A stretch of 64,000 bases of DNA. Source: Tetradesmus obliquus. Lineage: Eukaryota; Chlorophyta; Chlorophyceae; Sphaeropleales; Scenedesmaceae. The translations under genes and the position numbers were made by a program. The notes under the pieces are model-generated. The model was not told the DNA's origin and did no database searches. It saw nothing but the letters and a program-made list of their open reading frames with translations. This document shows, in pieces, positions 14,563 through 46,217 of this stretch (the stretch's first letter is position 1; each line of letters starts with the position of its first letter). The DNA is taken from contig CP126192.1 in NCBI GenBank assembly GCA_030272155.1, positions 8,776,501 to 8,840,500 on the forward strand, read 5' to 3'.

Positions 14563-17500
14563 TCAAGTCACCGCTATCATATCAACAGCGATGTTGGACC
14601 AGGTTGCATCAGCGGCGCACCTGTCGTGCATGAAGTTGGAGTCCACCACGTCCTCGTCCTTGGCGTTGAGCACGTAGTCCATCACAGTGGGCAGGCCCCC
14701 AAAGCTGGTGGAGGACGATACAGCGCTCTTGACCCTGCAGGAAGGCGCAGCAGCAGTAGCGGCAGCAGCAGCAGCCAGCAACATGCAAACGTCAGGCAGA
14801 GGCTGTGATGCTGCGGTACACAGCAGCTGCTGGCCAGTAAAGCACGCGCACGCGCAGTTTGGTGTGCTGAGCAACTTCTGGAAGCGTGCACAAAGCACCG
14901 CAACAGCAGCAATAGCAGCACCAGCACCAGCACCAAAAGCGTGCAGAACCAGGTTGCCGCGCCGCACCTGCGGAAGTTCCAGATCACGGTGTGCTTGCCG
15001 CAGCTGGCCACCACCCATCGCTCCTGGCTGCCCGCCTCCGTGACCCAGGTGAAGCGCCCGCTCTTGAGCGGCTTGCCGCCCGTGGCCAGCCTGTCCTCGG
15101 GCTTGAGCCGCAGCAGCCGCGGCAGCGCCAGCCGCCCCGCGCCCTTGTCGGTGAAGGCGGAGCGCTCCTTGCCTGCGTTGGGGTTTGAGGGGGTAGGCCA
15201 GTGGGGGCAAGAGCAGAGATACACGCATCAGTTTGAGTGGTGCCAATTGTTGGTGGTTTGGAGGCAGCAAGTGGCAGTGCGCGCCGCAAGATGGATGCGC
15301 GGTGCCAGGCGGCGCACGCACTTTGCACGTACACATCCATGCCAGGTCAACCATACAGCTTGCCAGCAGCAACCACGGCTGCAGCTCACAAACCACCTGC
15401 AGCAGCATGCCCCTGCAGTGGTGCCACGGCTGTGCAGGGGGCCCCAGTCCGACTCGCAAGTAGTGCACGCTGGGCACATTGCTCGAAGATGAGGCGATGT
15501 CAAGCTTAGGTTTAGTGCAGTGCTGCCAAGTCACCGTCCTCGTTGCTGAAGGCTGCCTTGACCACCATGAATTAAGCAGCTGCAGCTGACAAAGCAGCAG
15601 CAGCAGCAGTAGCGTGTGCAGTGCTGCCAAGTCCCCTCACCGTCCTCGTCGCTGAAGGCCGCCTTGACCACCATGAGGTAGTCGTCAGTGGTGGCCAGCA
15701 CCCAGGAGCCGTCATACGTCACGTCCACAGCAGTGATGGGCTTGCCCAGGCCAGGGATGGACGTCTTGGCCTGCGTGGCATGACAGCACGAGCAGTACAA
15801 AATCAAACAGGTCACTGAGTTGCAAAAGTGCGAAGAACACCAGCTGATGAATGCAATCGCCTGCCATCGACGCGCAGGACTACACACTTGCACCACCACG
15901 CCATAAGTAACAAGCATGTGCTGATTGCCACAGGCAGAGACACTGTCAAATCCCATCGGAAGCACCAACCACCAGCCGCAGCAATACGCAACACCAGCGC
16001 ATGTCTGCATGTACTCGCACCGTACCTGCGTCAGTGTCTTGCTGCTGTACAGCCGAATCTTGCCGTCCCTGCTGCCCACCACCACGTGGCCCGCGCCGCT
16101 GGTGGCCATGCAGGAGAAGTTGGTGCCGCGCGCAAAGTCCTTGCCGCCCGTCCACTGCACGATGGGCGAGGCATCGCCGGCCTCCTGCAGGGGTGGTTGG
16201 TTGATGGCACACACAGCACAGGTGCTGAGTTGGGCGCAGCCATCAATGCTGCGTGCGCATGCGTCCATGCTAGGACCAAAGAGAATAGTTTGCAAGCATA
16301 CATAGTCAGCCAGATGTGCTGAAAACGCGTGCAGCACCATTCTGCTACCATGCCACCACAGCATCACCCTTGTTTGGCGACCGTAAACGTCAAGAAACAC
16401 AGTCATGCAGCACTGTGTCCACTGCATGTGCAGCAGCTGAACCCCTAGGCTGTGCATCACGGCCCACCCCCTCACCTGCACCACGCCGCGCGGGTCGCGC
16501 AGGTCCCACTTGCACAGCCTGTTGGCGTCCAGCCCCAGCAGTGTGTTGGTGCCGTCCTCCAGCTGCGCAGCCTTGTGGTCGTGCGCGATGTCGGCCTGCA
16601 GCAGATGGGCAGGCAAGACATACAGACAACATACCAAGATAAGTGTAAGACCTTGCAGGAAACCTTGGGGCAGCACCTCTCAGGCACTGCAGGCTAAAGA
16701 CACAGCATCAGTGAATGGTGCTGGCTGCAACCTGGCTGCAGGACCGAGTGAGCGGAGCAGCACTGCACTCATCAGCGTGGCACATGGGCTGCGCCTAACT
16801 CAGCACCAACATCATGCAGCTGTCATGTGATGGAACCCAGAGCTGCATATGCAGCCCTAATAAACAAAAAAAAAAAAAAATTGCAATGCCAGCTGTGCAC
16901 CTGCGCCCTAGCCTCATCTTTGCCGGCTGCGCGCGCACCTGCGGGATGTCCACGGTGTCCTTCTGGAAGGTCCACTCGCTCACAATCTTCTGGTACTCCA
17001 CGTCAGCATGGAACAGCTTCGTGTTGTCCAGCCCCGGCGACAGCATGTTCATGCGCGTCTCGCCGTTGGCCAGCAGCACCTTGCCGGGCGTGAAGCTGGG
17101 CGTGCCGGGCGTGCCCGGCGGGCCGCCACGCTTGAGCGGCGTGAAGCTGAATGCGATGCCTGCGGCGCAAGCAGGCAATATAACGACAACATCATTAAGC
17201 AGCATTGCTGCCATATGCAGAGCCACCCGCGGGCGGCCGCCCTTGTCCTGCATGTTCTCCCTTGTCCTGCATGCTCTGCCTTGTCCTGCATGCTCTGCCT
17301 TGTCCTGCATGCTCTGCCTTGTCCTGCATGTCCCCCCCTTGTCAGATTCTGTCATTTCATGCAAGTTCTCTGTTGTCCTGCAAGGCATCCAGGCACGCTG
17401 CAGCAGCAGGCAGACCATGTCACCACCTACTGCAGCCCCCCACCCCCCACCCCCCACACACCAACCACACACCTGTGTCCTCAACGCCCGCTTCCACGTT

Positions 17501-19370
17501 GCGCATCACGTCAAACGTGGCGCCGCGCCGCAGGTAGGTGTTGCTGTTGGCGCCGATGATCATGCCCTCAATGGGCGTGCCTGTCTTGGCTGGCGTGGCC
17601 TTCTCCCTCATCTCACCACGCGCGGGGCGGTCGGGCGTGGCATCAACCTGCAGCGTACCAAGGAATGCAGGGCCACACGCCAGTGACAGTGAGCAACCGA
17701 ATCTGGTTTTAGTAGCAGCAGCTGCTGCTGAAACTGCTGACGCTCTAGTCCTTCCAGCACGCCTAAGCCCCTGCCACCCTGGCGACATCAAGCCGCAGCC
17801 TTGCGGCACCAGCTGCCATCTGCATGCAATGCACATTGCCCAACCAGCCCCGCGCGCCTCCATCAGTGCTGCTGCTCAGCTTGCCAAACACACCCGCCAC
17901 GCAACTGCACAGCTGCCATCTGCATGCAGTGCACACCGCCCAATTAGCCCCACGCGCTTCCATCGGGGCTGCTGCTGCACTGGCTGCTGCTGCACTGGCT
18001 GCTGCTGCACTGGCCAAACACACTCGCCAGTCGACTGCACCCGGTGCCATCTGCATGCAATGCACACTGCCCAACCAGCCCCACACACCTCCATGGGTGC
18101 TGCTGCTGCGCTGGCGTCCGCGTTGAAGAAGAGGTTCTTGAAGTCGCCCAGCTCCTTGTCTGCCTTGGCAGAGTCACGCCCAAAGCCGTACGTGTTCTGG
18201 AACACGTCGTCCTGCAGGAGTGCAGGAGTGGAGAGAGAGGGGGCACGTTGCAGGTGGCAGGGCCAGCGGTGGTGTGCACGTCAGCGGCAGAGCAAGTCGA
18301 TGAACACAGCGGTGCAAGTTGCGCTTGCAGGAAACAGGCAACCGCAAGTGAGCACTGCGCCTGACTGCTGCCTTCTGCGGGCTTGACTGGCAATTTTGCA
18401 TGCACAGGCAAACAGGGCTGGGTGCATCTGCACAAGTTCAAGCAGCAGAGGCACAAATGTTTGTTGCAGCTGCTGCCACAGCTGCCACTATCCTTGCAGC
18501 TGTCTGAGCTGCATACCCTCCTTGTACAGTAGCAGCACCCTCGAACAGCACTTGCAGGCAGGCGACACCCAAGCCCCCTGCTTAAAACCTGCGACATGCA
18601 CAACCCCACACCCACCTCCAGCTCCGTCATGAAGGCGCGGTATGACTCAGCCGAGGGGAACTTGAGCGCCCACAGGCCCTCATTAGCAGCAAACGTCACG
18701 CGCCGCGCAGCAGGGTCTGCCACGTAGCTCAGCGCATCGTCTGCGCGCGTGTCGATATCCCCTGCATCCACCTCCAGCCAGAAGTCCGGCTGCTTGCCGC
18801 GCGCGTCTTCGTTTGCGTCGTAGAAGCCTGGGCAGGCTCGCGAGGAGGTCAGCTCCCATTTGCCGCCGGAGCCTGCCTTGATGAACTGGTAGAGCTTGAT
18901 GCCGGGCGCGGCCTTGCAGGACATGGGGAGGAAGGAGGCAAGGACGTCAGGGTGAGACAAGACATATGCACGTGAACCACTGCAGACAATGAGTGCTGAT
19001 GGTGCCAGGGGAACACAGGCTGCGTGTGAACAGACTGGTCTGCACATTTGGCCCTAGTGTATCTGCTGCTGCAAGTGCCGCCTGCGACAGCAGCGTGCGC
19101 TGCTGTGGTGGGGTGGCTACAGCAGGCGACACTGAAATGCACTGCTGCTGGTATAGTTCAACTTGCAGCGTTCAGGCAACAGCAACCAGCAGTCATGCAG
19201 CAGGCGGTGCATGCATAGTACAGATGCCCTGTCTGTGCATGTGCACATGCATGCATGTATGCCGCGTCTGCTTGCCTCACCTCAGGCTGTGCTGCAGCTG
19301 CTGCCTCTTGTTCAACCTCCTGCTGCACTTCGTCTGTAGCTTGCTGCAGCTCACTGGTGGTGTTGCCCAT
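14563..19370 (-). CDS. VID27: VID27 / CYPRO4-family protein
   Basis: Ten minus-strand exons join in frame to 563 residues: 19370-19281, 18912-18616, 18211-18089, 17647-17473, 17159-16939, 16595-16476, 16184-16026, 15770-15641, 15172-14968 and 14734-14563. Residues 1-30 start MGNTTSELQQ, a myristoylation-type Gly-2 like the MG-start of plant CYPRO4/DEM proteins. Residues 31-170 match the N-terminal PH-like region (LYQFIKAGSGGKWEL, ANEGLWALKFPS). From about 250 on comes the VID27 beta-propeller: KLFHADVEYQKIVSEW, NTLLGLDANRLCKWDLR, GKIRLYSS, IPGLGKPITAVDVTYDGSWV, KHTVIWNFRRV. The family is conserved in fungi and plants. Yeast Vid27 was linked to vacuolar import and degradation of FBPase, but its biochemistry is unclear. 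Length is normal for the plant type. Introns 3 and 8 contain copies of the preceding exon end. The start is 520 bases from the divergent wax synthase start. Confidence 0.92.
15521..15571 (-). repeat. Intronic copy of the end of VID27 exon 8
   Basis: About 50 bases repeat the last coding bases of exon 8 (TGGTGGTCAAGGC, TTCAGC, GACGAGG) and the donor border seen at 15630-15675. The copy keeps a GT after the exon-like segment and lies about 100 bases downstream of the true donor in sense orientation. Confidence 0.85.
16864..16880 (+). repeat. A-run after AATAAA, within VID27 intron 5
   Basis: A run of about 15 A residues follows CCTAATAAAC on the plus strand, opposite to the gene. It resembles the tail of a retroposed RNA copy, but no body or flanking duplication could be recognised. 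Confidence 0.5.
17242..17332 (+). repeat. 19-bp tandem repeat, about five copies
   Basis: The unit CTTGTCCTGCATGCTCTGC is repeated about five times with few changes, inside intron 4 of the VID27-like gene. It is a short minisatellite with no evident function. Confidence 0.9.
17815..18120 (-). repeat. Tandem copies of the VID27 exon 3 end and donor, about 110-130 bp units
   Basis: Three imperfect units share CCATCTGCATGCA and CTCCATS-type cores. The right-hand unit contains the real end of exon 3 (18089) and its GTGTGT donor. The two units to its left, in the intron, repeat the same Ala-rich exon end (APME in translation) and the bases after the donor. The middle unit also has an internal triplication of a GCTGCTGCTGCACTG block. 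Confidence 0.88.
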
Positions 19371-19890
19371 GCTGCTGCTGTGTACAGGCTAGGGCCTGCT
19401 GCTTGAGTGCTGTGGAGCACAAAGCAGTGCCTAGCAAGCCTAGACACAACGGTGTAATTTTTTATCTACTCCTAGCACTTCGATCTACTGGCCAGCATGC
19501 GGACGAGACAGCACAGCACGCCACCACTGCCTGCAAGGATGGTGACAGCCCTAACCGATCTGTTGAGCACAAACTCGGGTTTCTCGTTAGTGGAAAAACC
19601 AGAAAAGTTTTGTATCTGTTAATCAAATAGCATGAAACCCAGAGCAAAGCACGCCGGGGGAGCAACGCGGGTGAATGATGCACCGCACAAATGCACGCGG
19701 CGGGCTGAAAGGCATGCACACGTATAATCTCGATAGTAAGATTGAGAGTAAACGTGGGTTGCCAGACTGTGGCGTTCGACTCAGAATTTGAATGGGTGCC
19801 CAGGGTTGAGTGTGCTGTGTTTCAAAGGCCACCCATTCATTTGTCTACTGCCACCATTGGCCTGTCTTATCCTGTACCTGTCAACGACCG
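19371..19890. promoter_or_regulatory. Shared upstream region of VID27 (-) and wax synthase (+)
   Basis: These 520 bases separate two divergent start codons and must hold both promoters. No clear TATA box or other site could be assigned by eye. Confidence 0.4.
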
Positions 19891-22197
19891 ATGCTGATTC
19901 CTTGGTGTTGCCTAGCCGGAGCAGCTGTGCACTATGTAGCCGTTGCAAGGCATGCCCCTCATGGGCTCAGACGCCTGCTGGCCTCACTGCCGCTGTTGAT
20001 CTGCTTGACAGCACTGCCCTTTGTTCATGAGAAGGTGAATACCCTCTTTCATTGCTCAAATAGAAGCAATAATACAGCTAACAGTAGGCTCTGAATCAGC
20101 AAGACCAGCGGCACCAGGAGCTTGAGCAGTGACTGCCACATTCCAGTTTGCAGCTGCTGCGAAGCAGCAATGTTGCCAATTGCTGCAATGGCAGCACAGC
20201 CAGTAAGACGGCAGCAGCAAAGTCCAGTCCCCTGCAACCAATCAACCGAGAACAGCATAATCATGACAATGATTGCAGGCGACTGTGCGTGGATCGCTGG
20301 CATTCGTGACAACCTGGCTGTCCAGCTTCAAGGTACTACGCAGCAGGCACTGGTCAGCTGGCAGATTCCGGCAAGCAGTGACTGAACAGGCTTCCCTGTT
20401 GCACTTTTCCACACTGTGTAACCACTGGTCAGCTGCAGCAGCTCAGGTGTTTGTCTTGGCAGACAGACATTGCCAGTTACGGCAGATGCAAGCTGCAGCA
20501 GCAGGTACACTTGCATATGGGAACTGATGAACATGCTGCTGCTCACGCTTACGCACCCACCACCACTGTGTGCATATGTGTTGCAGGTGCTGGCAGCTGC
20601 TGTGGGACGGGGCCCGCTGGCGCGCCACAACACCACAGCAGCACAGCACGCAGCGCTACTGCTGCTGCCACTCAATCCTGCAGGGACAGATGCACCATGC
20701 AAAGAAAGCTGTGTCAGCAGCCAAGCACAGCCTGAACCAGCAGCAACAGCTGTGCCCGGTGCCAAGCCAGGCAGCTGCCAGCCGGCTTAGCAGCACGTGC
20801 TGCTGAAGCTTGCAGCAGCATATGGCGTCATCCTGCTGCTGCAGGCCGCCCCTGGGATGCCAGCAGCAGTGCGGCACGTCCTTTACGGTGAGACAGCTGA
20901 TATGCAGGGAACAGCAACACACAGACATACCCACTGTGCGAGCGCCGCAGATTGCGTGTAGCAGCATGGTGATTCCAGCCATTAACGTGCATTGAGAGAG
21001 AAGCGCCCGTATTTCCCAGGCACTTGTCTGAGCGTGCTGCACATGCATGCAGCGCTGCGGTAGTTCTGCCACACAACTGCCTTGCGCCGCTTTATAACAC
21101 AATACCTGGAAATCCTTTGAGTCACTGCCTGGCGTATGCTGCGTCTGACCACTTCTTCCCCGCCCTGCACCCCCTGCAGCCGTCATCGTGTGGCTGACTG
21201 TGTCGCTGCTGGAGGACGTGCCGTCAGCACCGCTGCGCCCGGCCCTGGGCCTGCAGCTGTCACCCTGCATGCGCCAGCCCTACAGGTCAGCAGGCCTGGC
21301 CGAGTTCTGGGGCGGGCGCTACAACCTGGTGGTCAGCAGCACGCTGCGCTACAGCGTGTTTGAGCCGCTGCTGCAGGCGCTGTGCTGCTGCGGTGACACA
21401 GTGAAGCATAACGCACCCAGCACTGGCGATGCAGCAGCTAGCAGTGCAGGCAGTACTGTGCGTGCTGCGGAGAAGCAGCAGCGGCCTGCAGTAGAGCCGC
21501 TGAGGCAGGCGCTGCGCTGCTGTGGTAGCAGCAACACCGTGAAGGAGGAAGGGGCAGGAGATCACAACGCGACATGCAGTGCTGCATGCGGTGTGGGAAA
21601 AGCGAAGCAGGATGCATGCACCGGAAGTCAGCGCTGCAGGCGCTGCTGGGTGGCGCGTGCTGTGGCGACCACTGCTGCCTTTGCAGTGAGCGGGCTTATG
21701 CACAAGCTGTGCGTGTGGTGAGTGGGGCGATTGCAGTGCTTGAGGGTGCTGTTGGCAGCTGCGGTAGTCATCAACTTCTGCAGCAACCCATTGGTCGAGT
21801 GCTTCAGCAGCTGCTGTCAAGGTAACTGCATATACCAAGCACACCTGCTGCCAGCTGAGGCACTCATGTAAGTTGCAAGTATGCAACTTTGCACGATATC
21901 ACACCCCAACCCAAACATGGATGTGTGTGAAGAGTGCCCCTCCTGGGTTGCTGGACGCGCGCTGCTGCGTCATTAAAAGTGCTCTGCACTGCCTGCAGTG
22001 GCAACCTGCTGACTTGCATCCAGCTTGCTGACCCTGTCCCTGCCCTGCTGCCGCCTGCCTGCAGGCACATGTGCCAGACCAGCTACGTTGCAGAAGGCAA
22101 GTTCCTACCAGGCCGGCACCTGCTGTTCTTCCTGCTGCAGGCGCCCCTGCTGCTGCTGGAGCGGCATGTGCTGAAGTGGCCGGCAGCAAGCAGCACT

Positions 22198-22246
<49 letters not shown>

Positions 22247-22485
22247 TGGGACCAGGACATCGGCTGCAGAAGATTGGGATCCAGCCTGCCCTGCGGGTCC
22301 GCCTCACCCGCAGCTGGCAGGGGGTGCAACGCACTGTCGTGACGTTTGCTGTGCTTGCCATTCTGGCTGAGGTGCTGTTCTGGCCGCCATCTGAGGTGTG
22401 CAAATCAGACTTGAATGGGGTGGCTGAGATTGCCGACGGGTTGGCATGGCTGCAGCGTGCGCTTGCAAGCATTCTTACAATATAA
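19891..22485 (+). CDS. Wax synthase-like MBOAT acyltransferase, with an in-frame TAG
   Basis: Exons 19891-20034, 20279-20332, 20587-20887, 21180-21717 and 22065-22485 join in phase to 486 codons including the stop. The family transfers acyl chains to long-chain alcohols (wax esters) at the ER. Landmarks follow the plant wax synthase order: an N-terminal hydrophobic block (RRLLASLPLLICLTALPF), VTTWLSSFK then GRGPL, the signature SAGLAEFWGGRYNLVVSSTL, the block with the putative catalytic His (AFAVSGLMHKL), and C-terminal spans (LLFFLLQAPLLLLERHVLKW). Two oddities stand out. TAG at 20788-20790 lies in frame inside exon 3, in a variable loop between two conserved blocks. Exon 4 also has an internal duplication. 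A very short intron around the TAG is possible; otherwise this copy is interrupted. A (GCA)16 run encodes poly-Ala. TGTAA near 22608 may be the polyadenylation signal. Confidence 0.85.
22198..22245 (+). repeat. (GCA)16 microsatellite coding for poly-Ala
   Basis: An uninterrupted triplet run inside the last wax synthase exon, read in the Ala frame between two conserved hydrophobic blocks. Confidence 0.95.
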
Positions 22486-25282: not shown

Positions 25283-25316
<34 letters not shown>

Positions 25317-28300
25317 GTGGGTGGCGCCAGGTCAGAGCAGCACACGCAGGGTCGCAAAACAGCTGGGGACCGGATGCTGCTGCGTCCCACATGCAGGTTG
25401 GGGCAGAGACCGTTTGTCAGCTGCTTCTGCAGGCAAGCAATGCTGGCCCCAGCGGGCGCTGCACCCCGGGACACCCCCCTCCGCCCATGAACCCTACCTC
25501 TGCTCTCGTTGTACTGCTCCAGCTCGTCTGTCCACCCAGCAAGGCTGGCCCCAGCAGGCGCCGCTGGTTATACAGAACACCAGCTATCTCGTGACACGTG
25601 ACAGTCCGTGTTGTGGCGGCTTCAGCAGCAACGCAGCCAGATCATGCAGCTACACCCCCCTGCAGTTCCTGCGCACATCCTGCGTGCACAAATCACCACC
25701 GGAATCATCCCTGACCACGCTGTAGCACTGCCTGCCAGGCTGGACCTTCCCCATGGCCGCACCTATGCTGGCGTAGTACTGCTCCAGCTGGTCGCTCCAG
25801 TCCTCCGCCATCTGCAGCAGCTGGCTGCTGCCACGCGCCCTGAAGCGCCTACACAGCCGCTCCAGCAGGTCAAGCCGCGCTGACAGCTCGGCAGCCTCTG
25901 AAGGGGAGTAGTCAGCGGAGGAGGCATAGGAGGAGAGCTGCGGTGGTGCAGATGCGGCAGGACAGGGAGTGTGAGAAAAGGAGTGCGTGAAACAGGCGAG
26001 CAACAGCAGTGAGGAGCAACAGGAGCAACAGGCGAGCAACAGCAGTGAGGAGCAACAGGCGAGCAACAGGCGAGCAACAGCAGTGAGGAGCAACAGGAGC
26101 AACAGGCGAGCAACAGCAGTGAGGAGCAACAGGAGCAACAGGCGAGCAACAGCAGTGAGGAGCAACAGGAGCAACAGGCGAGCAACAGCAGTGAGGAGCA
26201 ACAGGAGCAACAGGCGAGCAACAGCAGTGAGGAGCAACAGGAGCGAGCGCCAGTACAGGTGCATGCCCGCTTGTGTGGGCACAAGAGTTGTAGGTGTGCC
26301 TGGCAGCAGGCACACGGCAAACACTTGCACACACAACTGTGCACATGACCCTACCGCACCAGAGGACATGTTCTAGGACCAACTGCAACCACTCGCAATG
26401 TACATCCTCTTGCCCCAACAACCCCACCGCATCCACCCCACGCAACTGCCCTTCTCCGCCCACCTGTGCCTGCGCCTCAAGCAGCGCCTCCTGGGCCACC
26501 TCCAGCTCCTCCAGTGCAGCAGACGTCACGGCAGTGGTGGGCAAAAGCAGGCACACCCTCTATTGCATATTGGCACATGCCCGCACAGCGCCAGCAGACC
26601 TATACCACCCACAAAGCAGCAGCTCCCTGCATGCCTATTTTTCTCCCACCCCACAGTCAGACGATCTCTGCTCACCTGTGCTTGTGCCTCAACCAGTGCC
26701 TCCTGGGCCACGTCAATCTCCTCCAGCGCAGCAGACCAGCCCTAGGCCAGCTGCAATAGCTCCCTTGACACCTCTTCTTTCCCCAACCCAGCCAAACCCA
26801 GCTTCTACCTCAACCGCTCTCCCGCCCACCTGTGCCTGCGCCTCAAGCAGCGCATCCTGGGCCACCTCCAGCTCCTCCAGTGCAGCAGACAGCGCCGACA
26901 CGCCAGCAGCGCTCGCCTCTGCCTCAGCAGCATCGTCAACATCATCGTCACCTTCTACGCCCTCGCCCTCTCCTTCATCATAGTCATCTGCCTCTGCTAC
27001 ATACTGCTGCTCTTGATCTTGACTGCCGCCAGGGCTGCCCAACCGCCGCTGCTGCTGCCGCCGCTTGCTCCGCTGCTGCTGCAGCAGCCGCAGCTGCGTC
27101 TCCTCAGCAGCCAGCACCCCCCGCAGCTGCCCAGCCACCAGCCGCAGCGCCTCACTCAAGCTTGGCGGGCCAGCCCCGCCCCCGCCGCTGCCATCGCCCT
27201 GGATTCCGGCCTGCACTGCTGCTGCTGACTCAAGGCAGCTGCGGCGCGACTCCAGCGCAGACAGGCGTCGCCGCAAAGAGACTTCCTCGCCTGCAGGCAG
27301 AGCAGTGAGAGCACGCACAGAGTGGTGTTTCTACACGACTGTGCCTGGTGGTGTGTAGCGGGGTTGCTGACAACACGGCTGTGGAAGTATGCGCATCACA
27401 TGCGCACTGACTCACGCCGTTGCTGCACCATCGGCAAGCATGATGCCCCACCCTGCTGCTCATCATCATCATGTTACCCATCAAGCCATAGCATCAACGC
27501 CATCGGCCCCGCGCGCCAATGGAGCAGCAACAGAAAGGCACACTACACCATCATGTTTGAAAAGGAGCACTACACCACCCTGCTGCTGCATTCTAAGCAG
27601 CTGCCCTTCCTCGCAACACACCCACTCAACTGGCAGTATGCCTGCCCTGTTGACCTAATCCAGCCTCCTCTGCAGTGCTGCCTTCCACCACAGCATTTGT
27701 AACCCCGCTGCTGCACACCGGGCAGCAGGCGTGTCCCACCTGGCAGTATGCCCGCCCTGTTGACCAGGTCCAGCCTCCTCTGCAGCGCTGCTTACAGCCA
27801 CAGCATCACTAGCAGCATTAAAAACTTTACTGCTGCACACCAGGCAACCGCCCCTCCCCACCTGGCAGTATGCCTGCCCTGTTGACCAGGTCCAGCCGCT
27901 TCTGCAGCGCCGCCCGCTCAGCATCATCCCCGAGGGCCTCAGCCTGCGCCAGCTGCGCTGCTAATGTGGCGAGGCGCGCCTGCTGCGCTGACAGTGCGGA
28001 AGCGGCAGCAGTGGTGCCTGTCAGGTGGCAGCAGCGAGGCAGGGCACGGCAGGGCAGCAGCAAGTGGTGAGCCAGGGGTGTGGCTGTGAGCAGTTAACGC
28101 ATGCAGCCGTGATTCGTAAGCTGGCAGCGCTTTCAGATCATGCAGATGAAATCTGGCCATATGATGTCGCTGCAAAATGTAGGCTGTAGCCTGCACGGAC
28201 TGCAGCCGCAGCTAGCAGCCTGCACATACGGCACACCAAACGCTAAGCAGCAGTAAAACCACAAAGCCGCCACCACTGCCGCCAGTGCCGCACGCCACCC

Positions 28301-30865: not shown

Positions 30866-32787
30866 CGAGGAGCAGCAGCAGCAGGGCCCTAAGAAGCGTG
30901 CCGTGTGCGAAAGATGCACGTAAGTACGTAGTTGTAAATACTGTCTCTTCAGCACGCAGCTGCCACTGCTGGATTGGACCTGCATGCGCTGCTGAGCTGT
31001 GACCTGCTCCCCTCTTGCTGCTGCAGGCGGCCACAGCGCGTCTGTGTGTGCCCTGCCTTGCCAGGCCGCCCCATCAAACTGGCAGGCACAGTGGTGGTGC
31101 TGCAGCACCCGTTTGAGACCAAGTGAGCTCCGCATGTGATGCAATAGCTGTCCCACAGCAGTCGCAAAATGACACACACGCAGCACGCGCCACATTTGAG
31201 TATGCTTATCACACTGCAGGCAAGTGAAGCATCACAGTCTGGCCCACACGTGCTTTGCCAGCTTCACGTGGCAGCGCCCTGTGGTGTGCTCAGCAGCTCA
31301 CGGCGCCTGCCCTCGCTGCTGTTGCAGAAAGGCGCTGGCCACTGTGCCGCTGCTGCCACGTGTGTTGCACCCAGCCAGCCTGCTGCGCCTGGTGGGGCGG
31401 CGGCTGCTGCCGGGCGCCTTCCCCCGTTTTGATGCGCTGCTGGCACAGGCGGGGCAGGCAGGCGCGCCCGTGATGGTGCTGTGGCCAGGGCCAGGTGGGT
31501 GGGTGTGACGCATGTTGGTGGAGATACATGGGATGTGCAAATTGCATGCGTTGTCAAAAAATACGCATTGTGTGTTTTTGGGTTGCGCACCCCTGATGGT
31601 GCTGTGGCGAGGGCCAGATGCGCGCGGAGTGAGGTGGTACAGCTGACACTGCAACTAGCGTGCCATACACACGGGACCAGTGCCATGCTGTTGGTTGGGG
31701 TTCCCGCATGAGCATTCACACAGCACTGTAGATGTGCACAAAGCTGTTGGCTGTGCAGGTCACATATCAGGTCACCTTGCTGCTATGACAGCAGTACGCA
31801 GCATTCACCTCTGCTACCTAACCTTGACCCCTGTGGTTGTCCTGTTGTGCCTGTGCAGGTGCGCGGTGCATCACAGATCTGCAGCTGCCACAGCTGCGCA
31901 AGCACTGCAGCCTTCAGCAGCAGCAGCAGCAGCAGCAGCAAGCGCAGGCGCAACCGCAGTGCTCTGCTACGCAGCAAGTCTGCAGTCAAGACACACAGCA
32001 TCTGCAGCAGGAGGAGCCTATGCTTGCAGCTGGCGCTGCTGACGCTGCTAGCGCCAGCTTGAAGTATGTGCTGGTGGTTGTGGATGGCACCTGGCAGCAG
32101 GCCAAGGAGATGTTTGGTGTGCTGCAGCACTGGCTGCTGGGGCCGGGCGGCTGCGCGGTGCAGGTGCAGCTGCCGCTGACACATGCACATCACAGCAGCA
32201 CAGCAGCTGCGGAAGGCGCAGCCACACAGGAGCTCAATGCGTGTGGGAAGCAGCCAGCTGCCCTGCAGGAACAGGAGCATATTCAAAGCGTGTCCGGCAA
32301 TCCGGCAGCAGCAGCAGCAGCAGCAACGGATGTAGCAGCAGGTGTCGCAAGCCTGTCACTGCAGCCTGACCCCACCTGCCGCTTGCGCACAGAGCCTCAC
32401 GAGGGCTGCACCACCACCTACGAGGCCATAGCACAGGCTGTGTCACACCTGGAGGCACTCGCCTGGCGGCAGCAGCAGCAGCAGTGTGGCGATGGGCAAG
32501 CACTGCAGACCGCGCAGCAGCACTGTGGTGATGGCCAAGCACCACAAAGTGAGGAGCAGCAGCAGCAGCAGCAGCAGGCGGAGCTGCTTGCTGCGCTGCT
32601 GCGGCCGCTGCAGCCGATGACACAGCTGCAGGCCTCCTTCGACCCTGCAGTCAAGGCGCGCAGCCAGCAGGGCAGCAGCTGTGTTGCGCCCACGCGCACA
32701 CGGCTGGGGCTGGGCCGTAGCGTGCAGCTGCAGGCTGTTGCATCCAAGCCAACTGTCACTAGCTCGGAGCTGACTCAGCCTGCGTGA
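30798..32787 (+). CDS. DTW-domain tRNA-uridine aminocarboxypropyltransferase-like protein
   Basis: Four exons (30798-30919, 31027-31122, 31328-31494, 31859-32787) join to 437 residues. DTW-domain proteins (bacterial TapT, human DTWD1/DTWD2) move the 3-amino-3-carboxypropyl group of SAM onto tRNA uridines to make acp3U. The family Cys signature spans exons 1-2: CERCTRPQRVCVCPALPGR at about 37-55. Next come VVVLQHPFE, a TVPLLPRVLHPASLL block and LWPGPG, then VVVDGTWQQAKEMF at about 199-212 carrying the DTW-type core (D-G-T-W), and CRLRTEPHEGCTTTYEAIA near 302-320. Residues 8-33 are poly-Gln from a (CAG) run, and long Gln/Ala-rich insertions separate the conserved blocks, so the protein is about twice the usual size. 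Intron 3 contains a copy of the exon 3 end. Motifs are intact and the gene looks functional. Confidence 0.92.
30822..30864 (+). repeat. (CAG)14 microsatellite coding for poly-Gln
   Basis: A pure triplet run eight codons into the DTW-domain protein, read as poly-Gln. Confidence 0.95.
31585..31620 (+). repeat. Intronic copy of the end of the DTW exon 3
   Basis: About 36 bases around TGATGGTGCTGTGGC and GGGCCAG repeat the exon 3 end at 31460-31494. In the copy the donor position reads AT instead of GT. Confidence 0.85.
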
Positions 32788-34356: not shown

Positions 34357-35071
34357 TCTGTGCTGTTGCTAACCATGCTGCTGCTGTTGCTGCTTATCGC
34401 GCTGGTGGTGTTGCCGCTGTCAGCGCCCGGCAGCCCCAGCAGCCGCCCCAGCACCAGCCCCAGCTGTGCCAGGCCGTCGGGGTGCTTCAGCACCTCCAAG
34501 TGCCCGTAGTCGCCCAGCTCGGTGATGTTGGCCGACTCGGTGACCCTGCAATGCAGGCGCAAAAGATAGGCGAGCGTACAGCCATTGCGGTTCAAAGAGC
34601 AGGATACGCAGGCCAGGTGACCCTAACAGCACTCAGATGTGATGTTGAACGACTCAGCGACCCTGCAGTAGTGGTCAGGGATCAGTGCAAAGAAAAGGGA
34701 TAGATGAGCACTTCAAACTTCCTGGTTCAAGGAGTAAAACAGGCAGGCTGTGTGCACTCTAGCAGCACTCAGAGCGGTTAGGCTAGCTTGCTGCTGCAAA
34801 GCTTGCAGTACCTGTCAGAGCTCGAGCGCTGGTTGGCTGGCACACGACTTGCCAACCTGGTGATGACAGCACAGCAACACTGCCAAGCACATCAACACAG
34901 ACCTCTGAAGGCTGGCGCACCACCCCCCCGCACCTGTAGCACTGCTTGAGGCTCTGCATGCTGACGGTGCCGTCACCGCCTGTGGTGACCAGCGGGCTGC
35001 TGCTCAGCAGCGGGCGCTTCTCCTTGATGTTGGGGAAGGCCCACGTCAGCGTGGTGGGCTTGCCCACGGCT

Positions 35072-35105
<34 letters not shown>

Positions 35106-36271: not shown

Positions 36272-36311
<40 letters not shown>

Positions 36312-36955: not shown

Positions 36956-36998
<43 letters not shown>

Positions 36999-37664
36999 CG
37001 CACACCCACCTGCGCGACCTTGGGCTGTAGCGCGGCTGCACCATGTACATCCAGCAGCCCAGGCCGGTGGGAAGGATGGAGCCGGCTGTGGGCGGCCACA
37101 CGGTATGCATCTTCTTGCGGCCCAGGCAGGGCGTGCCTGCCGCAAAGCCGTTGTAGGTGGCGTTGATCTGGCTGGCCATGATGCCTGGACCAGCAGCAGA
37201 GCGGCGCGGTGCGGGCGGCCAGCATCAGCATGGCGACAGCAGCAGCAGCATCGGCGACAACTATGTGTAAATTCTGCCTGTTTAGGAGCACACTGCCAGC
37301 TGCAGATGTTTACACACCGTGGATTGCTGCCTTGGTGAAGTGCTGGTGAGTTAATGAGTGCCACGCGTATCCTTGCACATGCACTTGCTGCCAGCTGTCA
37401 CAGCAGAGCTGCTCTAAGCTCAGCAGACCAGGTGGGTACTGCTGCTGCTGTCACTGCTGATACGCAGTTACATCGATTGCACAACCGCATGGTCACGCAA
37501 GTGCTCGAGGACAGCCAGCGGCACACTGGCCAGCGAGAGCAGCACTCACCTGGCAGGATGATGAGCGGGTGCTTCGCATCCTCACAGTTGTCCGCTTGCA
37601 CTGCCTGAGCCAGTACCAGCGCCGAAACACCAGCAAACAGCGCCCATCTCATGGTATCGGCCAT
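33996..37664 (-). CDS. LCAT/PDAT-family phospholipid acyltransferase or phospholipase, secretory
   Basis: Six minus-strand exons (37664-37550, 37184-37010, 36662-36336, 36059-35329, 35069-34934, 34545-33996) join to 677 residues. The family takes an acyl chain from phospholipid and passes it to a sterol or other alcohol, or to water. Residues 1-24 form a signal peptide (MRWALFAGVSALVLAQAVQA core). HPLIILPGIMASQINATYNG crosses the first intron and matches the conserved entry strand. Catalytic residues are visible: Ser about 189 in IGHSMGGL, Asp about 482 in GGDGTVS and His about 510 in DYGHLEVL. GAPFDWRLHL and the post-Ser strand VTVSAPFGGT also fit, and Asn-X-Ser/Thr sites occur. Plant LCAT1 is about 430 residues; the excess is an Ala-rich insertion in exon 4 and a Ser/Gln-rich tail. 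I cannot separate LCAT1, PSAT and phospholipase A types. Intron 5 carries a copy of the exon 6 start. Confidence 0.92.
34638..34670 (-). repeat. Intronic copy of the start of LCAT-like exon 6
   Basis: About 30 bases repeat the exon 6 start and its acceptor (sense CTGCAGGGTC then TGAGTCG and AACATCAC) roughly 115 bases upstream of the true acceptor. Matching words beyond it (GGTTCAA, CAGCACTCAGA) show that the duplicated unit is about 115 bases long. Confidence 0.82.
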
Positions 37665-38058: not shown

Positions 38059-38661
38059 TTACAAACTGTTCATCGCCAGCTGCGTCGCCAGACTGGAACG
38101 CATTGACACTGCAGTGTCAAGTGCCTCTTCCAGGCGCAGCCCCAGGTCGGTCATCTCCAGAACAGCCCTGCAGCCATCCTCAGGGGACCTGCTGCTGCTG
38201 TTGCTGTTGGATAAGGCATTCGCTAGGCCCTTAGCCGCAAAGGGTGTGAAGGACAACCTCCAGGCCCTCTCCAATAGGTCGCTGTCCAATGCCACAGCGG
38301 CTGCTGATGACCTTGCATCATCCAATAGCCCCTGCAGCTGGCACCAGCCCAGCAGCTCCTGCAGCTCATCAGCAGCGTCATGCTGCACCAGCAGCTGCTG
38401 CAGCTTACCGCCCTGCTGCCCATCCGCCACTGCCGCTACTGCATCCGCAAGCTGCTGCAGCACCTGCAGCAGCTCGGCTGCCGCGTCCTGCACCTGGCTC
38501 AGCGCTCCTGCCACATCGCTGCCGGCAGGAGCTGTGCCGGCATTTGCTGCTGCCAGGTGCTGCTCGAGTGCTGCTGCCCGCACAAAGTAGGCCCAGCGGT
38601 CCCTCAGCAGGGCTGCCTGGGCCTTGCTGACAGCTGGGTTGCTGCTGTCAAGGGCCTGCAC

Positions 38662-38703
<42 letters not shown>

Positions 38704-40053: not shown

Positions 40054-40400
40054 GTTTGCCGAACGTTGGAAGACGCAGCAAACAAGCAATAACAAAAGAT
40101 GTGGTTTGGCAGTGAATGATCGGGTCCGAATGGGCCTCGGTGGCCCACTGATAGAGGCGAGCCATGCGTGTCGAGAGCCCTAGTCAAGTGACAGTTGGTG
40201 AAACATTCAAGATACACTGACAGTATAGCGACGATGTTATGCAACATGTCTATGTGCAGGGAGCGCAGTTGAAGTATAGGCACTGCCGAGACACTTACGG
40301 TGTTCACAGGCTGTGAATCGCAGCTGTGACTGCGGAACATCGATCTGACCTCAACATCGAGCAAAGCATTGTTTTAGCGTACCGAAAACATCACTTCGCC
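40054..40400. promoter_or_regulatory. Divergent promoter of the LON-like (-) and giant-protein (+) genes
   Basis: Only 347 bases separate the two start codons, so both promoters are within it. No site could be named with confidence. Confidence 0.45.
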
Positions 40401-41331
40401 ATGTACTGCCTCCATGGCTGGCCAGTGGCCAGGGGTGCAGCAGCAGCAGCAGCAGCAAGGCAGCAGCAGCAGGGCAGCAGCTTGCGTATTCGGCCATGCA
40501 GACCTGTAAGTGGCCCTGCACAGAAAGGAACATGTTATTTGAAAGTGTATATAATGTTTTGTCTATGGTGTCACTGGCCATGCTGTGCTGTGTGCCGTGC
40601 AGGTGACACATGTCACAGCGCAGCTCACCAGGCGCACCGCTTGGGCGCCTGTCAGGTGCTCGCCAGCTGATGCAGGTGCCAACAGCAGCACAGAGCAACT
40701 ACCGCAACAGAGCTCTGGATCAGTACAGCAAACACCACTGCCGCTGGTTGCTGCTGAACCAACAGCCACAGCTGCACCTGGAGCCAGTGCAGAGCAGCTG
40801 CTGCAGCAGATGGCAGGGCAGCAGATGCTGCTGCTGCAGCAGCAGGTGACGCTGCTGACGCAGCTGCTGCAGCAGTCCCAGCAGCAGAACGCTGCACTGG
40901 CGGGCCAGGTGCAGCAGATGACGCAGGAGCTGTCAGGCATTAAGCAGCAGCTGCAGCAGGCACCAGCAGCTGCTGCCCCTATGGCACAGCCGCCAGCAGC
41001 CGAAGACACCACTGCACAGCCGCCAGCAGCCGCAGACACCATGTCACAGCAAGTGCAGCAGCAGGAAGCAAAGCAGCAACCACAAGCGCATCAGCCACAG
41101 CTCCGCATGCAGGGCGCTGCTGCAGCTGGTGCCCCTGCTGTGCGCAAACAGGCAGGGACAACAGCTGCTGTGCAGCCGGCATCCGCGCCTGCAGCGCTGG
41201 CAGCAGCTGCGCAAGGGACCCCAGATGCTCATGCAGCAGAGCACCCCGCAGCAGCCCAGGCAGCTGCAGCGCCTGCAGCCAGCACACCCCCACAGGTCAG
41301 CTCTGTGTCTGCGTCCGACAGCAATGGCCTG

Positions 41332-41383
<52 letters not shown>

Positions 41384-43123
41384 GCAGTGCAGATGGCACT
41401 GTGCCTGCTGCGCATGCTGCTGCCAGACCTGCCAGCCCTGCTGCCTCAGGAAGCGACTCTGATGCAGACGCAGCGGACGTAGCACCTGGAACGCGGCAGG
41501 AGCTACGCCCACGCGACGATGAGTTTGCGCGGGCAGCATACAAGTGCAGGAGGTGGCAGCTGCTGCGCACAGTGGTGGAGGAGCAGCAGCAGCAGCTGCA
41601 GCCGTGGCAGCTGCTGCTGGCGCTGCGCCACCTCAGCGCACTGACCAGGGGTACCTGCACAACGCACAGCAGCAGCAGCAGCAGCAGTAGCCAGCAGCAG
41701 CATTCGTCTCCTGAGGACTTTGGGGTGAGCCTTGTGCAGCGACTGCTGCAGCACCCTGCGCTGTTTGTGCCAGCCGCGCCAGGCCTGGCCTGTAGCCTTA
41801 CCCCTGAGGAGACGCTGCAGCTGCTGCTGGCAGTGGCTGGGCTGGCCCTGAAGCTGCCTCCCTCCTGCATTGAGCAGCTACAGGCGCTGTATGAGGCTGC
41901 ATTGCAACACGCCATGAGTGCTGCTGGACCGCAGGACGAGCAGCAGCAGCAGCAGCAGCAGCAGCCGGGCGACGCTAGCTGGGTGCTGTCTGCCGACCAG
42001 CAGGTGCAGCTGCTGGGTTGCTGCCTCATGCTCGGCCTGAGGCCGCTTCAGCAGCACCTGCAGCTGCTGGCTGCACTGCAGCCCTCTGAAGTTGCCAGCT
42101 TCAGCCTGCTGGGGGCAGCACTGCTGCTGCTTACAGCAGATGCCCTGCTGGCAAAACGCATGCTGGGCAACCCAGCAGCAGCAGCAGCAGCAGCAACAGG
42201 TAGCTTGCCTCCCTCACAGGCACAGGCAGCTGTGGGAGAGGCGCTGCCTGGCCTGATGGCGGCAGCGCTGCAGAGGCTGGCCACTGGAGGCTCACGGCAG
42301 TTGAACTCGCAGCTGGGCGCGCAGCGCATGCGGCAGCTGGTGCTGCTGCCGCTGTCGCGGCTGGCATCAAACGGGCAGCTGCAGCTGACTGCAGACACGC
42401 AGCAGCAGCAACAGGAGAATACAAAGCTTCAGGGTGGTGATGGCAGTAGCAGCAGCAGTTCAGCCAGTGCCGACAGCAGCAAGGCTGGTGCCAGCAGCAT
42501 GCCAGGGCTAGAGCTGGATGTGTGCACTGCACTGCAGCACGCCATTTGTGATGGCCTGTACGCGCAGCACCAGAAGCAGCAGCAGCGGCAGGAGCGCCAG
42601 CAGCAGCAGCAGCCGGGGCGAGGGAGGCGTGGCGGCAGCAGCAGCGCCGCGCGTCCTCCACGCAGCCCAGCAACAGCCGCAGGGCGGCCAGCCCCGACTG
42701 GCGATTGGTCTGCGCTGACAGCCGCTGCAGCGCTGCTGCTCATGCGCGGTCAGCTGGGCTGCCTCATCATCCCCCGCTGCCTGCCTGTGTTCACGGCAGC
42801 AGCAGGCACGCAGCTCAGCAGCCTGCCTGACCACATGCTGCTGCCACTGGTGCAGCTGGTGGCAGCCTCAGCAGCAGCGCAGGCGGAAGCTACAGCGTCG
42901 CAAAGGGAAGAGCTGCGGCAGGCGGACGAGCGCTTCAATGGGCAGATACCCGGTCATATCGTGATGCAGCAGGAGCGGCAGCAGCAGCAGCGCAGGGGCT
43001 ACGGGCGCTGGCGCAGCGCTGTGCTGGCCCACCTGGGCAGTGCCACCAGCAGGATGCCGATAGACCAACTGCTGGGCTGTGTGGTGGCACTGGCACAGCA
43101 CCATGCGCAGGAGGCGCAGCAGG

Positions 43124-43159
<36 letters not shown>

Positions 43160-44213
43160 GCGGTCATGCAGACAGCGATAGCTTCCTGCAGGAGTGCATC
43201 AGGGTGATAGATGCAGCATTAGAGCGCCACGTGGAGGCACTTGAGGGTGCAATCAAGAGTGCAACCAAGCCGCAGCAGCACCGCCAGCAACAGCCGCAGC
43301 TGCCGCTGTACAGCAGCCAGCAGCTGGCGGTGCTGCTGCCTCAGCTGCAGCAGGCAGGCCTCCAGCCTTCCTCTGACACAGCCACTGTCCTGCTGAAGCT
43401 CATCATGCTAGCCCCGCAGCTGCAGCAGGTGGCAGCAGAGGCGCGCTTGGGTGCGCCTCAGCAGCAGCAGCAGCTGGCAGGCCTGCCTGCCCTGGCGCAG
43501 CCTGCTGACCTGGCGGCTGCTTACACAGCAGCTGGGCAGCTGCGCAATGCACCAGATCCGCAGGTGATGCAGCAGCTGGCTCAAGTGCTGCAGCCAGCAG
43601 GGCAGCCGGCACCAGGTAAATTAGGCGCCACCTGGTCGTCGGCTGCTGCATCATCTCCAGCAGCAGCAGGTTCTGTCAGCGCTTCTGAAGCCTGTGCCCT
43701 GATCTGCTCGCTGGCACCAAGTACAGAGGAAGATCAGGCCGAGGCAGCAGCAGCTTCTTTTAATAGCAGCATAAGCATCAGCAACCGCGCCAGGCTGGGT
43801 GACTATGCCTTTGCAGTGTACCAGGGCATCAGCCAGCTGCAGGGTGGCCAGCTGGCAGCACTTGTGGCAGCACTGGCTGCGCTGCAGGTGCCCCTGGCTG
43901 AGCCACTTGGCCCCCGCTCTCTGGATGGCAAAGCCAAAGTAACATACGGCATGGTGCTGGCTGCGGCAGCTTCTGCAGCTGCAAGGCCGGCTACATTGGC
44001 TGCTACAGCGCCTGATGCAGTGGCACAGCTGGCAGCAGGGGTAGCGGCATTAGGTGGCAGGCCAGATGGCGGCTGGTGGGCTGCGCTGCAGCAGCGGTTG
44101 GCGGGGCAGCTGGGTGCTGTGAGTGGGGCGCGGCTGCAGCAGCTGCTGGGGGCGCTGGGGGCGTGTGGCGTGCGGCCTGGCCAGGAGTGGCTGCAGGAGG
44201 CGGGCCAGGTGAG

Positions 44214-44279
<66 letters not shown>

Positions 44280-46217
44280 TGCTGGGTTGCCGCCGCCTCA
44301 AGCTCTTTGCTGTTGACAGGAGGTGCTGGAAAATTTTTATGAGCGTCGTGTGTTTGTTGGCTGTTGTTGAAGCTGCAATTGCCGTCTGCATAAGTCATGT
44401 TAAAATGTACATGTGTTTTGTTGGGAAAATGTCACGCAACTGTGTGTTGCTTGGGGCGGCTGGCGTGTGGCGTTTGGCCTGGGCAGCAGTGGCTGCAGGA
44501 GGCGTGCCAGGTGAGGGGTGGTTGCTGCTGGGGTGACACCTCTTTGGGGCGTTGCTGGTGATAGGAGAGGTTTCATCGAGTGCATGCACTTTGTGTGCTT
44601 TCCTACAGAGAAATAGCTGTTGTGTTCACGCAGTTTCCGGGCAAAGCTCCCATGACAGTAACAGCCGACCCAAACAAAACTGCTTTTTCTTGAATACTTT
44701 CCACTGCTGTTGCTGCTGCAGGCCACACTGGCAGCATATGACAGCAATTCAGGCAGCGACGCCGCCTCCCTGCAGGAGCTGCGCCAGCAGTCCTGCAGCG
44801 CATCGGTGCGCCTCATCGCCTGCAGCTCACTGCTGGTGCAGCTGGGCGCAGCAGCGCTGCCGCAGGGCCTGCAAGAAGCTTTGGTGGCAGCTGTGGATGC
44901 ACAGCTGCTGCAGCCCTTTGCGGACGGGGCAGCCAGTGCAGCATCACCGCTGCAGCCGGCTGCTGCTGCAAGCCTGCTGGCAGACGCAGGCTGTGCACTG
45001 GCGGATGGGGGCTGTACAGAATTGCCTGAGGGCTGGCTGGCGCGCTATGCTGCTGTTGCTGGTGCGCTGCTGCCTGCAGCGTCCGGTGACGGCTGCTGCC
45101 GGCTGGCTGCTGCTGTGGCTGGGATTGGCTGCACGCTGAGCTCAGCCTGGCTGAGGGAGCTGACCCGCCAGGTGAGGCAGCGGCTGAACCATACAGCGCG
45201 GTTTTTAATTGTTGGATGCATGCAACAGGTATCCACCGCTCAAGCCTGCGCAGCAGCAGTTTTGTTGCATGTGGTGCTGTTGTCGGGGCGGTCTGCTGCT
45301 GCGTCACTGCTGTGTGCTGCGGCTCATAGTCTGGGCATCCGTGTTTCCTTGCACACTGCAAGCGCCTGCGTGAGCACATGAATCTGCATTATTGCGTGCA
45401 TCCACTGCTGCACGCACCCACTGAAACCTCCGGCTGCTGCCTGCCACCTGACCGCACGTGACTCTCTGCAGCTTGATGCCAAGGTGGCGTCAGCAGGCAG
45501 CAGCAGCATCTGCGCGGCCCTGGCCGGCCTGGGCCAGCTGTCAGCAAGGCCATCAACACTCATGGCCAATACCCTGGTCATCAAGACACAGCAGCAGCTG
45601 GCAGCAGCACCTACAGTGCACACATCTGCTCCGGCCATGCTGCCTGGTGGCCTGCTTGCAACTGACCTGGCTGCTGCTGCGTGGGCGCTGGCAGGCGCTG
45701 AGCTGCGGTTGCCACCCAGCTGGAGCTCGGCAGCAACAGCGCACCTGGCAGCAGCTGCAGTAGTGCTGCCTCCTCGAGCCCTGCTGCAGGCGGTGTTTGC
45801 AGCAGCCAGCTGGCACATCAAGCTGCCGAAGCAACTGCTGCAGGCGGTGCAGGGCCTGGATCAGCAGCAGCTGCAGGCAAATCAGCTGCTGTCACCGCAG
45901 CAGCTCAGCATGGTTGTCTCTGCACTGCTTGCAGCTGGCCAGGCAGTACCTCAGGCACTGGTGCTGCACCTGCCGGAGAGTGCAGCAGCAGCTGCAGCTG
46001 CAGCTGACAGCCGTACAGCAAGTCAGGCGCCACCAAGGCTGGCAGAGGCGCTGTGGCAGCAGGCGCGCAGCCTGCTGTCACAAAAGGAGCAGCGCAGCAG
46101 CATGGATGTGGATGTGGTGGCAGCGGCTGTGGCTGGCCTGCAGGGCCTGCAGGCGGCAGAGCTGCTGGGCTGTATGAAGCCACCTGAGCGGTGGAGCACC
46201 TTGCTGCAGGCCTTTGC

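Follow-up and report, generated by a model that had tools for sequence, protein, structure and literature searches.

Copies of exon edges inside the adjoining introns of Tetradesmus obliquus genes

The window analysed here, i.e. a stretch of 64,000 nucleotides from contig CP126192.1 of T. obliquus (GCA_030272155.1, positions 8,776,501 to 8,840,500), holds among others a VID27 gene, a RecN gene, a DTW gene, an LCAT gene, a gene for a giant protein and a cysteine-rich gene, all of which carry local copies of exon sequence, putative in the last case (Table 1). The exons of VID27 were fixed by the database protein P0001, those of LCAT by a complete ORF and those of RecN by the translation of the joined exons, which shows 100% identity to the deposited P0122 over its whole length. 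All copies named in the original prediction were recovered, namely those in VID27 introns 3 and 8, three RecN introns, DTW intron 3, giant-protein intron 2 and LCAT intron 5, as well as the short pair of the cysteine-rich gene, whose match at a putative exon at 5.8 kb amounts to only 20/21; all but this pair were measured a second time. The predicted sets of three ordered copies, the original being counted, correspond to VID27 intron 3 and two RecN introns.

Table 1. Original exon edges and their intronic copies in the window (positions are those of the window).
Feature	Position	Strand	Separation	Splice dinucleotide	Basis or remark
VID27 exon end and intron start, original edge	18037..18115	-			donor at 18088; P0001; HSP to 17806-17884
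VID27 intron 3, copy 1	17910..17952	-	131	GT to GC	
VID27 intron 3, copy 2	17806..17884	-	231	GT to GC	
VID27 exon end at intron 8, original edge	15637..15672	-			donor at 15640
VID27 intron 8, copy	15531..15566	-	106	GT intact	
RecN exon end, original edge	27859..27914	-			donor at 27861; P0122
RecN copy 1 of edge 27859..27914	27737..27806	-	122	GT intact	
RecN copy 2 of edge 27859..27914	27627..27696	-	232	GT lost (TT)	
RecN exon end, original edge	26822..26890	-			donor at 26829
RecN copy 2 of edge 26822..26890	26665..26736	-	154	GT intact	
RecN copy 3 of edge 26822..26890	26453..26524	-	366	GT intact	
RecN cassette exon, 96 nt (spacer and copy 3)	26464..26559	-			in deposited isoform P0121, absent from P0122
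RecN exon end, original edge	25761..25799	-			
RecN copy of edge 25761..25799	25496..25534	-	265	GT intact	
DTW-gene exon end, original edge	31462..31497	+			reading frame only
DTW intron 3, copy	31585..31620	+	123	GT lost (AT)	
LCAT exon start and acceptor, original edge	34522..34550	-			
LCAT intron 5, copy of acceptor edge	34639..34667	-	117	AG intact	
Giant-protein exon end and donor, original edge	44151..44218	+			reading frame only
Giant-protein intron 2, copy	44453..44520	+	302	GT intact	
Cysteine-rich gene, short copy	5794..5814	+			putative exon
Cysteine-rich gene, second member of short pair	5877..5897	+			

Across 26 introns of five genes, 8 of 52 exon edges are copied inside their own intron (score at least 18), as against 1 of 1760 mismatched combinations of edge and intron, from which neighbours within one gene were excluded, and none of 62 reverse complements. 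The check that had been proposed, a comparison with shuffled pairs, hence reveals a strong excess in the matching orientation for the genes of the window, and since mismatched pairs hardly ever match, it is not brought about by similarity of low-complexity sequence. This set omits the cysteine-rich gene, the gene at 7-9.8 kb, the first DTW intron and those introns of RecN and the giant protein that could not be resolved; the RecN introns 25762-25281 and 25077-24865, although not individually resolved, were retained because the joined translation equals P0122. With low complexity masked, the window further contains 40 non-redundant ungapped direct matches at lag 15-1000 (score at least 18), compared to 2 each at lags 5000-5985 and 20000-20985 and 3 inverted ones. 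TRF reports just VID27 intron 3 (periods 100 and 131) from among the edge-copy loci between 14 and 45 kb, and by this criterion of tandem-repeat software the loci are not ordinary minisatellites.

The pattern had been located at 14563..44721, where it does occur, but these coordinates are too narrow, as all four stretches examined show it, with a higher density on the other contigs, C1, C3 and C5, than in the window. The suspected wider occurrence thus extends well beyond the window: 79 local-duplication loci were found in the 311 kb sampled (0.3% of the genome), i.e. about 25 per 100 kb, and Markov-1 random sequence gave 0 and 1 HSPs where real sequence gave 117 and 42. After removal of low-complexity sequence (11-16% of each block) and of pairs with a lag <60, an HSP length <30 or overlap with a better pair, 107 pairs were kept. 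Lags >700 were excluded from the coding-overlap, splice-position, gapped-extension and codon counts, the last of which additionally exclude lags <80 and coding overlaps <21 bp; the use of a simple coding-potential track was confined to the placement test and to counting codons. Coding overlap was found in 68 of 104 pairs, with about 40 expected under random placement. In ClpR2, a gene picked for its array, 8 of 10 resolved edges have copies, two unresolved introns being left out. A donor bias is not claimed: the window has 7 donor-side and 1 acceptor-side copies (p=0.07), but the ratio in ClpR2 is 4:4 and a codon table of 50 pairs holds, by hand count, 30 donor-side and 20 acceptor-side ones.

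Of 27 exon-to-intron matches in four genes, 25 take in the adjacent exon edge (within 6 nt), with an exonic part of about 24-86 nt, and none of the 27 reaches the other end of the exon (first and last exons cut at 150 and 170 bp). The duplicated unit is contiguous across a splice border, as in RecN, where the unit 27813-27913 extends well into the intron, and this fits local duplications that cross one splice border. These matches lie 103-663 bp from their originals, in introns of 388-1480 bp, and across the sampled loci the offsets show a sharp lower limit near 100 bp. Head-to-tail repeats that exceed their own period in length make up several of the multi-copy arrays. In 14 of the 43 listed pairs with an identity of at least 0.90, homology covers <70% of the offset after gapped extension; some of these are non-adjacent array copies, and clear two-copy examples are C1 19096, 67540, 74719 and 74971. 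About a third of the high-identity pairs therefore look spaced rather than tandem. With splice matrices built on 28 introns (three donors and one acceptor being out of register), conserved donors with the exon inside were found within the last 10 bp of the HSP in 24 cases versus 8 in the wrong orientation; the acceptor profile along HSPs has no end peak. That homology always ends at the splice site is only partly true, as donor-end cases are a minority of pairs.

The expected link between copies and longer introns was found: introns with a copy (score at least 16) have a median of 468 bp (n=9), those without one of 291 bp (n=17; p=4e-4). Table 1 of PMC5966456 gives a mean intron of 462 bp for T. 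obliquus and of 230-302 bp for four other green algae. Intron birth by tandem duplication of an AGGT border, which had been put forward as a possible route, is not supported, because that model needs a copy separation equal to the intron length and 0 of 27 separations fit. No newly born intron was seen; the database proteins of VID27 and ClpR2 give no sign of a gained intron, and the exon added by the RecN cassette is confined to a single deposited isoform. According to this annotation, a RecN copy serves in the cassette exon, whose acceptor is supplied by the spacer, which agrees with the idea that spare splice sites are created. An ongoing process, as originally proposed, appears plausible from the 97-98% sequence identity between copies in arrays.

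From our point of view, the findings are probably best explained by frequent short local direct duplications in T. obliquus genes, with survival of those that cross a single exon-intron border, subsequent decay and rare recruitment as cassettes. Such duplications would arise with an offset of about 100-150 bp, and then multiples of it. Where one crosses a single border, the copied edge and splice site would become intron because the original splice site stays in use, so that each event would lengthen the intron by about 100-150 bp, whereas duplications within an exon or spanning a whole exon would be lost because the protein is changed. The copies would afterwards decay largely like neutral DNA, in keeping with the 4 of 11 window copies that have lost their splice dinucleotide and with the codon changes listed below; some arrays may be re-amplified or homogenised, and now and then a surviving copy could be taken up into a cassette exon, for which RecN is the example. 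Beyond this, one could speculate that duplication is active and tied to genes, has a physical minimum step of about 100 bp, repeatedly copies edges outward, is the main cause of the introns being longer than in relatives and seeds cassette exons, a proposal that we regard as tentative and rather less likely to be true than false.

Several observations count against the duplication-and-survival explanation. The spaced pairs are not predicted by simple tandem duplication with equal decay and would require that the exon part underwent conversion, that introns turn over fast or that filler was added during copying. Intron-only pairs are, by our own reckoning, rarer than expected under even duplication, and the floor near 100 bp is not accounted for. 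Moreover, mismatches are more codon-periodic than expected by chance (largest class 473 of 926; null 438.3 +- 8.3, with 467 as the maximum of 2000 shuffles), and there are pairs whose differences are almost all synonymous (synonymous to non-synonymous 6:0 at C1 74971, 7:1 at 82702 and 5:1 at 37305), more so than a neutral copy should be.

The copies could instead stem from templated insertion, in which a break in the intron is repaired by copying the edge of an exon close by, with unrelated filler added, so that copies are spaced from the start. The spaced pairs as well as sharp ends and unrelated spacers, as judged by eye, point in this direction, and so does RecN copy 3, which at 26456-26524 is identical to the exon end at 68 of 69 positions despite its larger separation, while the intervening copy 2 shows about 85% identity. 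Random templates should, however, include exon interiors, whereas almost all matches include the adjacent edge, and several arrays are fully head-to-tail; we consider templated insertion unlikely.

Still less probable is an artefact of assembly or polishing, by which two diverged versions of a locus (haplotypes or mixed strains) were joined head to tail at conserved exons. It would be in line with the sharp offset floor, the unrelated spacers, homology that ends near splice sites and the pairs with only synonymous differences, and one assembly is the source of all DNA examined. Yet at least one non-synonymous change is present in 40 of 50 pairs (hand count from the codon table), the splice dinucleotide is lost in 4 of 11 window copies, and a second RecN-like locus did not turn up when 871 bases of RecN were used as a query. 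A lag-67 intron-internal pair, which is below the floor and not of the main class, is common to both members of a segmental duplication with 97-98% identity. Long T. obliquus introns are also reported from a 1,368-scaffold draft (PMC5966456, in a table that is silent on copies), and the deposited RecN annotation has a copy as an exon.

That the copies are maintained as functional alternative exons or regulatory decoy sites seems very improbable to us. The splice dinucleotide is kept in 7 of the 11 window copies, the RecN cassette exon stands in a deposited isoform, mismatches are codon-periodic, and only 2 stops occur among the 212 changed codons (of 815 in 50 pairs). Against this, the other changes comprise 109 non-synonymous and 101 synonymous ones, four copies have lost the dinucleotide, the copies are partial exons, and each edge occurs only once, with no copy, in P0001 and P0166, which are the database proteins consulted for VID27 and ClpR2. 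That all copies are coding-constrained or haplotypic is rejected as a general rule by the same codon-change counts. Mediation by the CAG/CTG microsatellites that abound here, runs of which lie in some spacers (VID27 intron 8, C1 19096), can practically be dismissed, as runs of at least 4 units occur in 12 of 74 spacers, matching the 13.1 +- 3.0 of nearby random windows.

Introner elements are a case in which one process changes many introns of a genome, and the sequences of different introners are akin. In T. obliquus a single process would likewise change many introns, but its arrays are each private in sequence, as the mismatched pairs indicate. PMC4974935 describes how, in the potato RdRp gene, a tandem duplication across an intron-exon boundary doubled the acceptor and exon start, by which this one gene acquired a new intron and a small additional exon; in T. 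obliquus the border is crossed in the same manner, but donor edges are copied too, local-duplication loci are numerous and no new intron was seen. Homology along the whole separation, the head-to-tail feature of the potato type, is present in several multi-copy arrays, and in the spaced pairs homology covers less than 70% of it. AGGT intron gain, as outlined in PMC3443670 and PMC2891723, also yields duplicate splice borders by local tandem duplication, but there the duplicated exonic unit itself becomes the intron, whereas the unit in T. obliquus spans a border that is already there and does no more than make the intron longer. Tandem exon duplication with mutually exclusive splicing (PMC9013439) likewise places exon sequence beside the original but copies whole exons; copies of a whole exon with both splice sites, the mark of mutually exclusive exons, are absent from the 27 T. 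obliquus matches. No description of the edge-copy pattern in Tetradesmus was found in titles and abstract openings of the papers that searches of CC-licensed PMC literature listed, and a search of the main text of the S. obliquus genome paper (PMC7590803) for the terms intron, exon and tandem returned nothing.

If the density holds genome-wide, T. obliquus would offer thousands of natural experiments on duplicated splice borders, which bear on the choice between copies, on intron growth and on the origin of new exons. In a genome where boundary-crossing duplication is common, the lengthening of introns and the birth of exons could be measured directly, for instance by comparing the two deposited T. 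obliquus assemblies, and the sharp minimum step of about 100 bp represents an unexplained constraint that acts either on the mutation or on how well it is tolerated.

A search for local repeats that made no use of gene models (ungapped matches of score ≥18, low-complexity sequence masked) returned 40 non-redundant direct matches at a lag, i.e. a distance between copies, of 15-1000 in the window, compared with two at each of the far lags examined (5000-5985 and 20000-20985) and 3 in the inverted orientation. The loci at which the original prediction had placed degenerate copies of exon edges, including the splice border, within the adjoining intron were recovered among these 40. The window corresponds to C2:8776501-8840500 in an assembly that comprises 104.66 Mb in 17 contigs; the RecN gene of the window matches the deposited OEZ86_001261 proteins of Tetradesmus obliquus (Scenedesmaceae, Sphaeropleales), and contig C2 ends 7.35 kb beyond the window end. 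Beside the window, stretches of contigs C1 and C3 (100 kb each) and of C5 (30 kb) were searched, and the repeat pattern is stronger there than in the window block, with 104, 124 and 45 matches of score ≥22, respectively, versus 36 in 81 kb including the window. At this score, five far-lag controls gave no match and the inverted orientation 0-2 in the C1, C3, C5 and window blocks. In a separate comparison, Markov-1 random sequence yielded 0 and 1 matches against 117 (C1 block) and 42 (window block) in the real DNA. The presence of edge copies within introns is confirmed and extends to the other sampled stretches. Predicted coding sequence is overlapped by at least one copy in 68 of 104 pairs, where random placement in the same blocks would give ~40. 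The four blocks contribute 33, 21, 14 and 11 loci with a lag ≥80, or 79 in 311 kb, a total that takes in some loci other than edge copies; scaled up from a sample of ~0.3% of the genome, this would correspond, as a rough figure only, to ~26,000 loci genome-wide. That the copies were produced by the assembly itself is unlikely but keeps a small probability, as all analysed DNA comes from one assembly. The window also contains a long open frame (Table), which, from its motifs, is a putative Ty3-like LTR retrotransposon.

Features discussed in the text, with positions in the window unless a contig or sampled piece of DNA (L number) is named
Feature	Position	Strand	Description
ClpR2 gene	L004:7466 to L005:2546 (C1:1017466-1022546)		copies at 8/10 resolved exon edges
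Exon duplicated outward at both edges	L010:4680-5240 (C1 block 74680-75240)		~190-bp exon
Ninth copy-bearing intron	VID27 14620-14354		weak match, score 16, separation 68, under ~100-bp floor
Long open frame, reverse transcriptase / integrase type	61103-63982	(-)	reading frame

Exon edges were set by database proteins for VID27 (P0001), RecN (P0122) and ClpR2 (P0166), by a complete ORF for LCAT, and by reading frames only for DTW and the giant-protein gene. When donor edges (-80 to +10) and acceptor edges (-10 to +80) were each compared with their own intron, for 26 introns of the five window genes, 7/26 donor edges and 1/26 acceptor edges had a copy at score ≥18; this score was reached by 1 of 1760 mismatched edge-intron pairs and by 0 of 62 reverse complements, controls computed over 31 introns with ClpR2 included. 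In ClpR2, which lies on C1 and was picked for its array, copies occur at four of five donor and four of five acceptor edges of the five resolved introns, and the end of the last exon including the stop codon is also duplicated downstream. The postulated lengthening of introns is borne out insofar as the median length in the window is 468 bp for the nine introns that contain a copy at score ≥16 and 291 bp for the 17 others (p=4e-4).

All exon-to-adjacent-intron matches of score ≥18 were catalogued in VID27, RecN, LCAT and ClpR2 (n=27). The adjacent exon edge lies at most 6 nt from the match in 25 of them, with an exonic portion of ~24-86 nt, and the two interior matches are short and located in ClpR2 introns that have edge copies too. 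None of the 27 reached the other exon end (first and last exons trimmed to 150 and 170 bp). We therefore regard the copies as events contiguous across one splice border; random exon pieces as their source are ruled out by the 25 edge-adjacent matches and whole-exon duplication by the failure to attain the far exon end. One RecN intron with two edge copies also contains a 36-bp minisatellite (25991-26244, 7 copies, 98%).

It had further been pointed out that tandem duplication of a segment with an AGGT border is a proposed route of intron gain. A tandem duplication across an intron-exon border is described to have created an intron in a potato RdRp gene (PMC4974935), and in the model based on an AGGT border the duplicated unit itself becomes the intron (PMC3443670). 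In T. obliquus, in contrast, the copy separation equals the intron length in none of the 27 matches and no new intron was seen, and hence the copies do not fall under the AGGT model.

With regard to spacing, the 107 independent pairs with a lag of ≥60 and a length of ≥30 show a sharp minimum lag of ~100 bp across the whole sample, alike for pairs with and without coding overlap: 8 pairs have lags of 60-89, none 90-99, 11 100-109, 8 110-119, 12 120-129, 9 130-139 and 3 140-149, with additional groups near 220-280. Lags below 100 occur in 4/68 coding-overlapping pairs and 4/36 others. On the acceptor side, an inner acceptor may require a minimum intron length to accommodate branch site and pyrimidine tract. 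A duplication inside an intron at 7199-7249 and 7266-7316 has a lag of 67, under this floor; it occurs in either member of a segmental duplication of 97-98% (L023 856-3808, window 5930-8856) and must therefore be older than the latter. Close to the C2 end and outside the window, there is a direct repeat with units of 248 bp at 98% identity and lag 366 (L024:3186-3433 and 3552-3799).

Head-to-tail repetition across several periods is found in multi-copy arrays, for example in the C1 block at 19320 (period 118), 44782 (120) and 67955 (108). At 44782, the array spacer is, by eye, similar to the flank beyond the last copy, a likeness that would fit an old tandem duplication re-amplified later. Homology covers <70% of the offset in 14 of 43 pairs of identity ≥0.90, and spacers appear unrelated at C1 19096, 67540, 74719 and 74971. 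For the exon duplicated outward (Table), the first 70 bp are copied upstream and the last 70 bp downstream, again with spacers unrelated by eye, and all codon changes in the upstream copy are synonymous (6:0). For such spaced pairs, either conversion keeps the exon part similar while introns turn over rapidly, or some events add a copy together with filler.

Codons were compared with the exon in the 50 pairs whose coding part measures ≥21 bp; among the 815 copied codons, 101 changes are synonymous, 109 are non-synonymous and 2 create a stop. The synonymous share of 48% exceeds the ~37-44% that we reckon if the copy of a constrained exon were neutral, which suggests slightly more constraint than neutral; mismatch codon periodicity is likewise above shuffles (the largest class has 473/926, against 438.3 ± 8.3 under the null). 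Individual pairs range from nearly pure synonymous (C1 74971, 82702 and 37305) to nearly pure non-synonymous (C5 9068, 0:9; RecN 25496, 0:5). The splice dinucleotide (GT or AG) is retained in 7/11 window copies and gone in 4/11. Regarding the use of copies, the VID27 protein P0001, with 573 residues in an uninterrupted frame on contigs of at most 3240 bases, presumably stems from spliced RNA, since the gene spans ~5.1 kb here, and it contained no edge copies. Similarly, every edge occurs once, with no extra copy, in the ClpR2 proteins P0166, from a second T. obliquus assembly, and P0167-P0169, from three relatives. RecN has two isoforms in the deposited annotation; the 32-residue insert of the annotated isoform P0121 corresponds exactly to 26464-26559 (-), 96 nt that take their acceptor from the spacer and their donor from copy 3.

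The mean intron length of 462 bp in T. obliquus, versus 230-302 bp in four other green algae (PMC5966456), agrees with a lengthening of introns, without proving edge duplication as its cause. Overall, the edge copies are best read as the outcome of frequent local duplication in this alga combined with the survival of those units that cross a splice border.
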